Of a DNA stretch of 64,000 bases, positions 4,281-63,279 are shown one piece after another (within the stretch, counting starts at the first letter, position 1; every line of letters begins with the position of its first letter). The stretch covers positions 1,338,501 to 1,402,500 of the forward strand of contig NZ_BQKC01000001.1 of the NCBI RefSeq assembly GCF_022834715.1, in the 5' to 3' direction. Source of the DNA: Granulimonas faecalis. GTDB taxonomy: Bacteria > Actinomycetota > Coriobacteriia > Coriobacteriales > Atopobiaceae. A program made the translations under genes and the position numbers. Under the pieces are notes generated by a model. It searched no databases and was not told where the DNA came from. It was given only the letters and a program-made list of their open reading frames with translations.

Positions 4281-4329
4281 ACAATGGGACGGAGCGACCA
4301 CCCGCAGGCACCCGGACGAGGAGGCACCC

Positions 4330-4743
4330 ATGAGGCAGGTAACCGTGGCGGCGGCGTTCATCGTCGACGGCAGCGACCGCATGCTCGCCTGCCGCCGCAG
4401 CGACGGCGACCAGGCGGGGTTCTGGGAACTGCCCGGCGGCAAGGTGGAGCCCGGCGAGACGCCCGAGCAGGCCTGCGTGCGGGAGGTGCGCGAGGAGCTC
4501 TCCTGCGACCTGGAATCCCTGTGGGCGCTCGAGCACGTGGAGCACGACTACCCCGACTTCCACCTCTCCATGGACGTCTTCTGCGCGCGCATCGCCGCGG
4601 GCCAGGAGCCCGTCTCCTCCGTGCACGACGAGCTCCGCTGGCTCTCCCGCGACGAGCTGATGGACGTCGCCTGGCTCCCCGCCGACGTGGACCTCATGAG
4701 GAACCTCCAGACCTGGTGGGGCGCCATCTTCGAGGAGCACTAG
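4330..4743 (+). CDS. Nudix hydrolase, MutT-like (8-oxo-dGTP or related NTP)
   Basis: Probably removes pyrophosphate from damaged nucleoside triphosphates. The Nudix box GGKVEPGETPEQACVREV followed by REEL is complete (residues ~37-58), and the N-terminal strand VAAAFIVDG and the FWELPGGK block are typical of MutT. The length of 137 residues is normal. The start follows GAGGAGGCACCC. Three direct repeats lie 110-170 bases upstream. Substrate preference cannot be read from the sequence. Confidence 0.88.
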   Translation: MRQVTVAAAFIVDGSDRMLACRRSDGDQAGFWELPGGKVEPGETPEQACVREVREELSCDLESLWALEHVEHDYPDFHLSMDVFCARIAAGQEPVSSVHDELRWLSRDELMDVAWLPADVDLMRNLQTWWGAIFEEH

Positions 4744-13310: not shown

Positions 13311-13491
13311 CACGCCAACTTTGAAGTTGGTGCGCACTGGCCGGCCGGAGTGCACGCCAACTTTGAAGTTGGTGCGTGTCGGGAGCGTCCGGCAGCCGTT
13401 TTTTCGGCCGAAACGCGCTCCAACAATGAAGTTGGTGCGTACTTGCGAGCCGGCGCCGGCCGGAGTGCACGCCAACTCTAAAGTTGGCGCG
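13311..13491. repeat. four palindromes of the CCAA-N8-TTGG type, spaced 42, 63 and 52 bp
   Basis: Copies at 13311-13334, 13353-13376, 13416-13439 and 13468-13491 have the form CGCCAA-CTTTGAAG-TTGGTGCG, with small changes. They fill the otherwise gene-free 360 bases between the small protein and the frameshifted nuclease-like gene. The spacings equal about 4, 6 and 5 helical turns. Each arm-centre-arm unit is 22-24 bases and could form a hairpin or bind a dimeric protein. Confidence 0.85.
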
Positions 13492-13519: not shown

Positions 13520-14538
13520 TCACCACACCAGATGCCGCCCCAAGACAAACGCCCTCAGCGCCCTGCGCTCGACCAGCCTGTTGCAGCAAGGGCCCGTCGA
13601 CACCTTTGCACCGAGCTTTCGAGCAAGCTCCCTCACTTTGAGGTCGAAGGCCACCTCGTCCGAGACCATCGGCCATGTCCACCGCACAATGTCCAGGCCC
13701 CGCTCCTTCATCAGCGCGTCGCGAAGGCGGTCTTGCTCCATGGCCTCCCGCGAGTCAAAATGCCCTCCCCCGTCGTACTCCAGCCCCGCACCGTGATCTG
13801 GCCACAAGAAGTCGATCTCGCACCGCCGCTGCCCCCTCATAGCAAACACCTCGTTGCGGCTCAGGTGAATCGGGCTGTTGAGTGCCGGCTTGGGCAGCCC
13901 GTACCCGCCGTCGCGCGCAGAAAGGCAAGCAGCACGTTGAGAGCCGTCTCCATGGGAGAGCGCGAGCCGTCGGCAACGCAGTCCAAGACGCGGCAGACGT
14001 TTGTGCGCGAGAACCACAGCCCCTCGCACGTTTTCGCAAAGGAGCGGATAGAGGCCACCGAGGCGACCGGCTCGCACTGAACGGATGTGCCGGACGGGTC
14101 GTCAAACCGCGGGCTGTACCTGCCACAGAGAAGCGACACCACCACCGCCAGAGAGGCTGGCGAGAGAATCCGGGAGCGCATGAGCACGTAGAGCTCCGGC
14201 GACACCGTGAGCACGCCTTGTTCCGTGGAGCAGAGCGAGCCCTCGGCAAGGGGCATCGCCATGCGGTGCGCAACGAGCCCCTTCGCCCGATGGCGGGCCT
14301 TGCCTTCAGAGACAGCGAGATGCACGGGCACGTCGTCCTCGGGGGCGGCACCCGCCAGCACCCGCACATGCCCGTCGAGCTCGCGGCGCCATGGAAGGTC
14401 CCGCACGAGCGCGGCGTCTGCCGTCGTGCAGGTCGCCCTCTCCAGGGCGCGGTCTGCCTCTTCCTTCGGGACGCGGCGCAAAGGTGCTCGCGAGGCAAAA
14501 AGTGTCCAAGCATCCAGGTCGCACAGGACAATGCTCAT
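13520..14538 (-). pseudogene. frameshifted DUF559/Vsr-like nuclease-fold gene
   Basis: Two overlapping frames together match the intact 345-residue protein at 61.6-62.6 kb. The N-terminal part reads MSIVLCDLDAWTLFAS... to METALNVLLAFLRA. The C-terminal part continues in another frame with RDGGYGLPKPALNSPIHLS, then RRCEIDFLWPDHGAGLEYDG and the conserved D-R-L...G-DIVR-TW end of a Vsr/DUF559 fold. At the junction (around 13.92 kb) the intact copy has LPARRGGYGLP, and the codons here are short by about four bases. The result is a truncated product lacking the nuclease-like domain. A sequencing error is possible. Palindrome repeats start 29 bases beyond its 3' end. Confidence 0.75.
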
Positions 14539-15085: not shown

Positions 15086-15220
15086 GGCGCCTCCTTGGCG
15101 TTGGGGCTCGCGAGGGGTTTATACCCCGCGAGGGGGTCGCCGGTGCCCGCTCCCGCGGCGTCCCCTCGGCGCCCCTCTCTCGGCACCTCTCCTCGGCAGC
15201 GCCCCCTCTCGCCCCCCCTG

Positions 15221-15359
15221 GCACCTGAACGCGGTTGAGGGCGACTCTCTACGACGAACCGCGTCGGAATCCGCCCTCAACCGCGTTCAGGGGCAGGAAA
15301 TCCGCCCTTATTCGCATTCAGGTGGAGAAGGGGGTGTACTCAATCGCGTTCAGGTGCGG
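15221..15359. repeat. repeat family CACCTGAACGCG, locus 1 (four copies)
   Basis: One copy on plus (15221-15245, GCACCTGAACGCGGTTGAGG then GCGAC) is followed by three reversed copies whose TTCAG cores lie at 15286, 15317 and 15349, that is 31 and 32 bases apart. The same family is found at 45.6-45.8 kb. It fills most of the 343 bases between DUF488 and the DegV gene. Nothing else is seen there. Confidence 0.85.
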
Positions 15360-15428
15360 AGGGTGCCAAGAAGGTGGAGGGACACTCCCCGACACCCCGC
15401 ACCCCAGCGTCCCGCGCTCCTGCCGCCC

Positions 15429-45618: not shown

Positions 45619-45637
45619 ACGTCTACATCGCGCATCG

Positions 45638-45775
45638 GCACCTGAACGCGAATGGGGGCGACCTCCTCGGCACCTGAACGCGACTGGGGGCGGATTTCGC
45701 CCTCCTGAACGCAGCTGAGGGCGACTTTGGCGGCTGGACCGCGCCGCGAGTCGCCCTCAACCGCATTCAGGTGCC
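45638..45775. repeat. repeat family CACCTGAACGCG, locus 2 (four copies)
   Basis: Three plus copies have their CTGAAC cores at 45642, 45674 and 45705 (steps of 32 and 31), followed by one reversed copy at 45751-45775. The unit reads CACCTGAACGCG-N2-TG(A/G)GGGCGA, as at 15.2-15.4 kb. Together with the two entries above it accounts for the gap between glycerate kinase and the Fe-dehydrogenase gene. Confidence 0.85.
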
Positions 45776-45835
45776 GAGGGGTGCCGAGAGGACCCCGGGT
45801 GCCGAGAGGTGCGGCGCACCCGGGGGCCGGCTCCC

Positions 45836-57254: not shown

Positions 57255-57859
57255 CTGCAGCGGGTGGCCGGTTGGCGCAGGTCTCGGCCGGCAGGGGGCG
57301 CCGCGGCCTGCAGCAGGTAGCCAGTTAGCGCGCCTATCAACCGGCTGGGGCCGCTCCGAACTGCACCAGGTGGCTACTTGGCGCACCTATCGACCAGCAG
57401 GAGCCCCCCCGACCTGCACCAAGTAGCCAGTTGGTGCACCTCCCAGCCCGAAAAGCGCCCCCAACCTGCACCAAGTAGCTAGTTGGCGCACCTCTCGACC
57501 GGCAGGGACCATCGCGACCTGCACCAAGTAGCCAGTTGGTGCACTTTCCTACCGACGGAAGCCCCCCGACCTGCACCAGATAGCTAGTTGGTGCACCTCC
57601 CTACCGGCAAGAGCCGCCCCCACCTGCACCAAGTAGCCAGGTGGTGCACCTATCGACCGGAAAAGCGCATCCGACCTGCACCAAGTAGCCAGTTGGTGCA
57701 CCCATCGACCGGCAGGGGCCTCCGCGACCTGCGCCAGGTAGCTACTTGGTGCACCTATCGGCCCGAAAAGCGCCTCCAACATGCACCAGGTAGCTAGTTG
57801 GTGCACATCCCGACCGGCAGAAGCCTCCGCGACCTGCACCAGGTGGCTACTTGGCGCAC
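57255..57859. repeat. twelve palindromes at 52-53 bp intervals
   Basis: 26-base units of the form CTGCACCAA-GTAGC(C/T)AG-TTGGTGCAC start at 57255, 57308, 57361, 57414, 57466, 57519, 57571, 57624, 57676, 57729, 57781 and 57834. The first two and the last are more diverged. Between units, 26-27 bases are partly conserved (CGACCGGCAGG...GCC). It fills the 636 bases between the convergent MFS and PfkB genes. Outer arms are the same as in the 13.3-13.5 kb array. Confidence 0.95.
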
Positions 57860-62640: not shown

Positions 62641-63279
62641 GGCGAGGGTCTGGGCGGCCGGCGGGGCTTGGGCGTGGCGGCGGGGCTTGGGCGGCCGGCG
62701 CGCGGGAAGCCGCAAGACCCCCCTCTAGGGGCACCCTGCGGAGGGGGCTTGCGGCAAAGGACCCTTGGAGGGTGGCGGGGCGCCCTCTAAGGGCGTCCAG
62801 TGCACGAAAAGTCCCCCTCCAAAGCCCTTTTGGAGCGAGACGAGCCTAGCGTGCGCCCTGCAACCCACCCTTGGGACAAGCCACCGGCATAGGGGGCCGT
62901 TGAAGGGGGTTTTCCGCCCCCACCCGTCTGCGGGAGGCGGTCGCGGCCACCTACCGGGCGCATCATCCCCCTCTAGGGCGCGGAGATGTGCCGCCAAAAG
63001 ACGGAAGGGCCCCTGCAGGGCGCCTTGGGGACAAGGTCACCCTGCAGGGGCCGCACTGAAGAATCGGGGGGCTTGTCAGAGGGGCCGCTCGTCGGGGGCG
63101 TCGCGCCAAATGGCCCCTCGCAAGGGGGACGCACCTAAGAACCAGGGGGCGCTTGCCAGGGGGCGCGCCGGGGAGAGGCCGCACCATGTTGGCCCCACCA
63201 CAGGACCCCGCCGTGTGGCCCCGCAGCGCGACCGGTCGCCTTGGGATGGGTTGCGGGCCGCGACCCAGAGCCCCTCCCC
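62641..63279. other. 639-base intergenic region rich in G/C hairpins
   Basis: No convincing coding frame: the open frames here are low-complexity Gly/Pro/Arg. Hairpins visible are CCGCAAG-A-CCCCC / GGGGG-CTTGCGG (62710-62754), GCCCT-CTA-AGGGC near 62.78 kb, and a perfect 13-bp pair GGCCCCTGCAGGG / CCCTGCAGGGGCC around 19 bases (63008-63052). Copies of CCCCTCTAGGG occur near 62.72 and 62.97 kb. No tRNA-like T-loop sequence was found. Confidence 0.6.

Follow-up and report, generated by a model that had tools for sequence, protein, structure and literature searches.

A nuclease gene family of Coriobacteriia that adjoins cognate palindromic repeats, with a likeness to REPtrons

In a 64,000-nucleotide stretch of the Granulimonas faecalis genome (the window, analysed at its full length), a broken nuclease-like gene lies beside an array of short palindromes. 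This raises the question of whether genes of this family are regularly paired with palindromes, and whether the encoded proteins act on them. The features of the window that bear on the question are given in Table 1.

Table 1. Nuclease-family genes and repeats in the window (positions are those of the window unless C1 is given)
Feature	Position	Strand	Basis or description
Four imperfect palindromes, ACGCCAACTTTGAAGTTGGTGCG type	13313-13334, 13355-13376, 13418-13439, 13470-13491		Motif matching
Broken nuclease-family member	13523..14538	-	Profile match in two frames, with translations
Second solo L025-family unit	15220..15360 (C1:1353720-1353860)	-	Opposite orientation to 45635..45778
Solo 144-bp L025-family unit	45635..45778	+	Three direct copies about 31 nt apart and one inverted
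Orphan palindrome array, TGCACCAAGTAGCCAGTTGGTGCA type	57363..57857		Nine motif matches, 52-53 nt period
Intact paralogue, 345 aa	61603..62637	+	Predicted AbiEi-like N-terminal and Vsr/EDxHD-like nuclease domains
Irregular short inverted and direct repeats	62709..63060		Downstream of the intact paralogue

The broken gene has its N-terminal half in frame 14538-13882 (model positions 1-224) and its C-terminal half in a second frame, 13930-13523 (positions 209-343), according to a profile (A1) of seven intact members from the same genome, to which L025 contributes an additional residue at the front. The two frames overlap at 13882-13930, near 13.9 kb, and together they cover the whole model, which bears out the original prediction of one gene split over two frames. 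Apart from this single break the gene is stop-free, and the EDxHD-set residues of the family (see below) are still legible in the translations of both halves. The break could be a real lesion or an error of sequencing. The palindromes, spaced at 42, 63 and 52, do begin 29 bases past the gene's stop (13520), as had been claimed, and four matches at no more than three mismatches compare with an average of 0.00 over 100 shuffled sequences. The array lies on one side only, downstream. Nothing among the results obtained hinted at a retron, and the window gave zero RNA families when scanned with Rfam at gathering thresholds. The gene and its one-sided array are best seen as a decaying family member. 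The orphan array consists of related palindromes, and no family gene adjoins it; short arrays resembling the orphan array also occur at C1:410.0 kb and C1:1878.0 kb.

The intact paralogue is a true relative of the broken gene and is free of stops over its 345 codons, so that its presence in the same window was predicted correctly. It does not serve as support for a gene-palindrome pairing, since its own flanks have no clear palindromes and its flank-alignment score (10.5) is under the control median. The irregular repeats downstream of it, which have no matching upstream copy, may be a decayed unit or a chance occurrence in G+C-rich DNA.

The protein encoded by the intact paralogue was modelled together with 52 relatives (mean pLDDT 89.5, pTM 0.88), and is predicted to have an AbiEi-like N-terminal domain (about residues 1-197) and a Vsr/EDxHD-like nuclease domain (about 202-318). 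Residues 202-318 resemble the catalytic domain of the homing endonuclease I-Bth0305I (3r3p; Z 8.6, rmsd 2.4 over 96), followed by 3hrl (Z 7.7) and Vsr (Z 6.5), and a profile search also matched the nuclease to 3r3p (E 4.8e-4). The predicted likeness is significant by profile and modest by fold (Foldseek E above 0.1); at E 0.001 Foldseek gave zero matches for the full-length and N-terminal models. Five residues are conserved in an alignment (A3) of 53 members: E205 and D251 in all 53, E262 and H268 in 50, and D277 in 52. These five residues form the EDxHD set, which is nearly invariant in the family. The alignment holds the window protein and 52 of the 66 named loci described below, 14 being excluded for bad or partial frames or as near duplicates.

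In Pfam scans of the 53 members, only MTES_1575 (14 members) and DUF559 (11 members) were matched at E 0.01 or better, and the intact paralogue matched neither. The C-terminal half of the broken gene scores 17.5 bits against MTES_1575, below the cut-off of 38.2, and the label "DUF559-like" first given to the gene is thus weakly supported. The own-genome member L024:5836-6825, in which EYQ replaces EYDS, is nearer to canonical DUF559 and lacks flanking palindromes. No HuH/Y1 domain was found by Pfam in the 53 members and the nuclease resembles Vsr/EDxHD, which rules out a REP-associated transposase.

The N-terminal domain, modelled alone, is most similar to 6y8q (Z 6.5, rmsd 4.5 over 119), and the next best matches are 8an5 (Z 4.7) and 1zel (Z 4.6). 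All three are antitoxin-related, which suggests an AbiEi-antitoxin-like fold and goes no further. The antitoxin-like part is where the model starts, so that AbiEi's DNA-binding half is apparently missing. The binding sites of AbiEi antitoxins are inverted repeats in the promoters of their own genes, according to excerpts of PMC7319586, and the N-terminal domain is therefore a natural candidate for recognising the repeats; the same property also strengthens the possibility, taken up below, that the palindromes are operators.

The family has about nine matching places in its own genome (2.23 Mb, with the intact paralogue as query), and a profile search found it in 31 of 40 related genomes, with up to 15 copies in one. 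Named relatives comprise 66 loci, nearly all from Coriobacteriia, including Olsenella, Collinsella, Gordonibacter, Paraeggerthella, Slackia and Raoultibacter as well as many MAGs; four of the 66 come from MAGs that carry the label Lachnospiraceae or Clostridiales. Searches of viral contigs and of phage records found no relative, and plasmid records gave one, on a Collinsella record of 900 kb.

At six of the nine own-genome members the gene lies between copies of a palindromic repeat, and the repeat is a different one for each member: CACCCGTAGAAGCTTCTGCGGGTG at L022, CCATGCCAAAGGC and its reverse at L021, CCGTTTGGTACTTTTCGG and AACCACCAAACGG at L023, CCTTCAGTGAGTG at L020, the G+C-rich GCGCACT/GGCGAAGGGCG at L019, and CACCTGAACGCGGTTGAGGGCG at L025. 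The intact window paralogue and L024 have no flanking repeat that stands out.

Family genes adjoin palindromic repeats above chance, as the pair at 13.5 kb had suggested, and three comparisons are positive. In the first, the 700-bp flanks on either side of 49 genes (nine from the own genome and 40 from other genomes) were aligned locally with each other, and the best scores of 25 genes exceed the 95th percentile of 369 control intervals of the same geometry. The number is 24 without L095, whose flanking unit was rejected because its flanks have a tRNA in common. The single highest control scored 186 and is exceeded by no family score. In the second comparison, a score of 16 is reached by 16 of the 59 testable named loci and by two of the 98 control ORFs that were taken from these loci (Fisher P 2.9e-6). 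In the third, a long inverted repeat with near-perfect arms (16-32 bp, span of 73-182 bp, no more than 260 bp upstream) precedes 15 of 64 genes, mostly within 40 nt of the gene start, and none of 141 control pieces. The arms pair within a gene and vary between genes (32/32 at L133, 27/27 at L136). The union of the named-loci flank test and the inverted-repeat test gives 29 of the 66 named loci. Members below threshold number 24 of 49 and 43 of 59 in the two flank tests, and many are negative in both the flank and the inverted-repeat tests. Flank limits are rough at L135, L154, L160 and L165, where gene starts are uncertain, and the pairs L137/L141 and L163/L165 overlap in part. L131 duplicates L058; it was kept in the named-loci flank test, in which it is negative, and left out of the helical-phasing and 10-mer analyses. 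Five loci of the congener G040 were scored without controls and are part of no count.

The repeat unit is about 70-200 bp long, and within it a motif of 10-20 nt recurs two to five times, in both orientations. At L061, L068, L069, L080, L081, L091, L094, L153, L184 and others, the internal layout is identical in both flanks, and the two units at L081 are 100% identical over 118 bp. The flanking pairs that score at least 25 are mostly in direct orientation (19 of 24, P 0.007; 18 of 23 without L095). The best 10-mer is present at least seven times in 23 of 114 family flanks and in 4 of 111 controls, and two control excesses are repeat arrays themselves, namely the 57 kb array of the window and one in L159; at 4-6 copies family flanks equal the controls. 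Related Eggerthellaceae genes have a related outer motif. A role as an RNA or single-strand hairpin is not supported, since 30 units show little covariation (7 of 28 pairs with any double change, covariation term -0.7). Helical phasing was dropped as a feature of the units: the family spacings peak near 10.4 bp, and the control pieces peak as well. Long tandem arrays lie downstream of the genes at L159 (about 31-nt repeats) and L169 (22-nt repeats).

The family might instead be a defence nuclease, the palindromes being incidental and both gathering in intergenic hot spots. PADLOC gives weak matches to a methyl-directed REase model (8 of 53 members) and to a homing endonuclease model (2 of 53), and in two genomes a family gene adjoins a tRNA and a kinase-like gene. 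The repeats are gene-specific, and control genes and pieces from the same loci are mostly without flanking repeats, which leaves this explanation very improbable. The two genes beside the tRNA, L021 and L069, come from two genera and have different units and a similar kinase-like neighbour; this is perhaps a common insertion spot.

The 144-bp L025-family unit, represented twice in the window, belongs to a gene at C1:1990.97 kb. It occurs at 34 places in its own genome; two of these flank its gene and 32 are solo. Identity to the query copy is mostly 71-84% among the 30 that were scored as near-full; with 12 of them inverted for alignment, these 30 have three direct motif copies and one inverted, the first being degenerate in a few. 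Solo copies are clustered near the gene, with 14 of 32 no more than 150 kb away against 4.6 expected (P 6e-5), for which other causes of regional bias are possible. The units are intergenic and mostly avoid promoters: by rough gene calls, the 28 solo copies with neighbours that could be estimated lie between 17 tandem, 10 convergent and one divergent pair of neighbours. Merging of matches gave further solo-type sites for three other units (4 for L081, 13 for L061, 22 for L069). The unit of L133, one of five searched genome-wide, has no copy beyond its own gene, and a 400-kb sample of the own genome did not contain the L022 motif, which in the DNA scanned is confined to its gene.

The distribution of the units bears on the possibility that the palindromes are operators, through which the protein regulates its own gene, with the solo copies as a regulon or as decoys. 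This would fit the resemblance of the N-terminal domain to the AbiEi-family antitoxins 6y8q, 8an5 and 1zel and the position of the upstream inverted repeats close to gene starts. Units are found downstream of genes as well, and the array of the broken gene is downstream only; in addition, solo copies are frequent between convergent genes and nearly absent between divergent ones, and the protein seems to lack the DNA-binding half of AbiEi. An operator system is accordingly considered unlikely, and ranks next after a repeat system driven by the nuclease.

The units could also be MITE- or REP-like repeats of the ordinary sort, serving as terminators or 3'-end stabilisers and spread by another enzyme, in which the nuclease genes hitch-hike. 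Like REPs, solo units are often near 3' ends and between convergent genes, and some families consist of one gene and dozens of solo copies. Many paralogues of one genome each have their own unit, and the outer motif is kept in related Eggerthellaceae genes, which makes hitch-hiking hard to invoke; it appears improbable.

A nuclease-driven repeat system, REPtron-like in its gene and palindromes and built on an unrelated nuclease, is the explanation that we favour, at somewhat better than even probability. Family genes are associated with repeats, each gene with a repeat of its own, and the repeats are dispersed; the protein, in turn, probably acts on the palindromes. In the full form of the element a gene lies between two copies of a unit, mostly direct, with a different cognate unit for each gene, and the AbiEi-antitoxin-like N-terminal domain is probably the DNA-recognising part. 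The protein may bind the motif copies of its cognate unit and nick or cut there, and host repair and recombination could then copy the unit, at times as unit-gene-unit, to new sites. Recombination between direct flanking units would remove the gene and leave a solo unit, and decay of the gene would result in a disrupted frame next to an array, which may have happened at 13.5 kb. We infer cognate-unit binding, cleavage, mobilisation, copying by repair and gene loss from the arrangement of genes and units.

The related genomes offer a few sites for comparison. At the L081 locus, the congener G040 retains both neighbours at about 70% identity with neither gene nor unit between them. This empty site fits insertion and deletion alike, and no target-site duplication is readable in it at that level of identity. 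At the L080 locus G040 lacks the gene and has other DNA in its place, and L211 aligns with G012 on one side only.

The analogy to REP-associated transposases made in the original prediction holds for the architecture, given the positive flank tests and the palindrome of its own beside each gene, and fails for the enzyme, which is Vsr/EDxHD-like. As in REP/RAYT systems (REPtrons, REPINs), a nuclease gene adjoins cognate short palindromes that also have solo intergenic copies. Unlike in REPtrons, paralogues are numerous within a genome and have a separate unit each, and the units are composite and mostly direct around the gene; tnpA-REP genes are mostly single copy according to excerpts of PMC8266576. 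The aligned L025-family units do not begin with the GTAG tag of REPs. Dispersed units of about 120-160 bp with inverted ends resemble MITEs with terminal inverted repeats, from which they differ in that no transposase end or target duplication was seen. The predicted nuclease shares its fold and the conserved E, D, E, H, D residues with I-Bth0305I (3r3p) and Vsr, from which the family differs by its extra AbiEi-like domain and flanking repeats and by genes that were not seen in introns. AbiEi-family antitoxins (6y8q, 8an5 and Rv2827c, 1zel) may share the fold of the N-terminal domain, and they too have inverted repeats near the gene; here the domain is fused to a nuclease, and the protein seems to lack the customary DNA-binding part at its N terminus. 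MTES_1575 (PF18741) and DUF559 (PF04480) are matched by some members and not by the intact window protein, and the literature searched contained no report of palindromic units for either.

No such nuclease with cognate palindromes was found in the literature searched (excerpts of PMC8266576, PMC8049555, PMC10969869 and PMC7319586), and the searches made for palindromic repeats in Coriobacteriia also found none. The family looks like an enzyme-plus-repeat partnership of a so far undescribed kind. A more specific possibility, whose chances we place somewhat short of even, is that the protein is a homing-type nuclease whose own target forms the flanking units. It would then represent a new class, either a genomic parasite or a domesticated system, that spreads its units, and at times itself, by cutting and repair; each paralogue would have been re-targeted to a different palindrome, and Coriobacteria would be a natural library of nucleases with their recognition sites. 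If the favoured explanation is true, the combination of dispersed palindromes and a nuclease devoted to them has evolved on two or more occasions, starting from unrelated enzymes, and the palindromic repeats of Coriobacteriia would be explained. With dozens of matched nucleases and sites available from a single class of bacteria, it would also become visible how such an enzyme switches to another target.

Two further loci have unusual surroundings. At L095, tRNA matches of equal score (2391-2463 and 4314-4386) stand on either side of the family gene, as if a joint duplication or insertion of gene and tRNA had taken place. L077 has a C-terminal-only family match in a short open frame between two long, near-identical direct repeats, and is possibly a second decayed copy.
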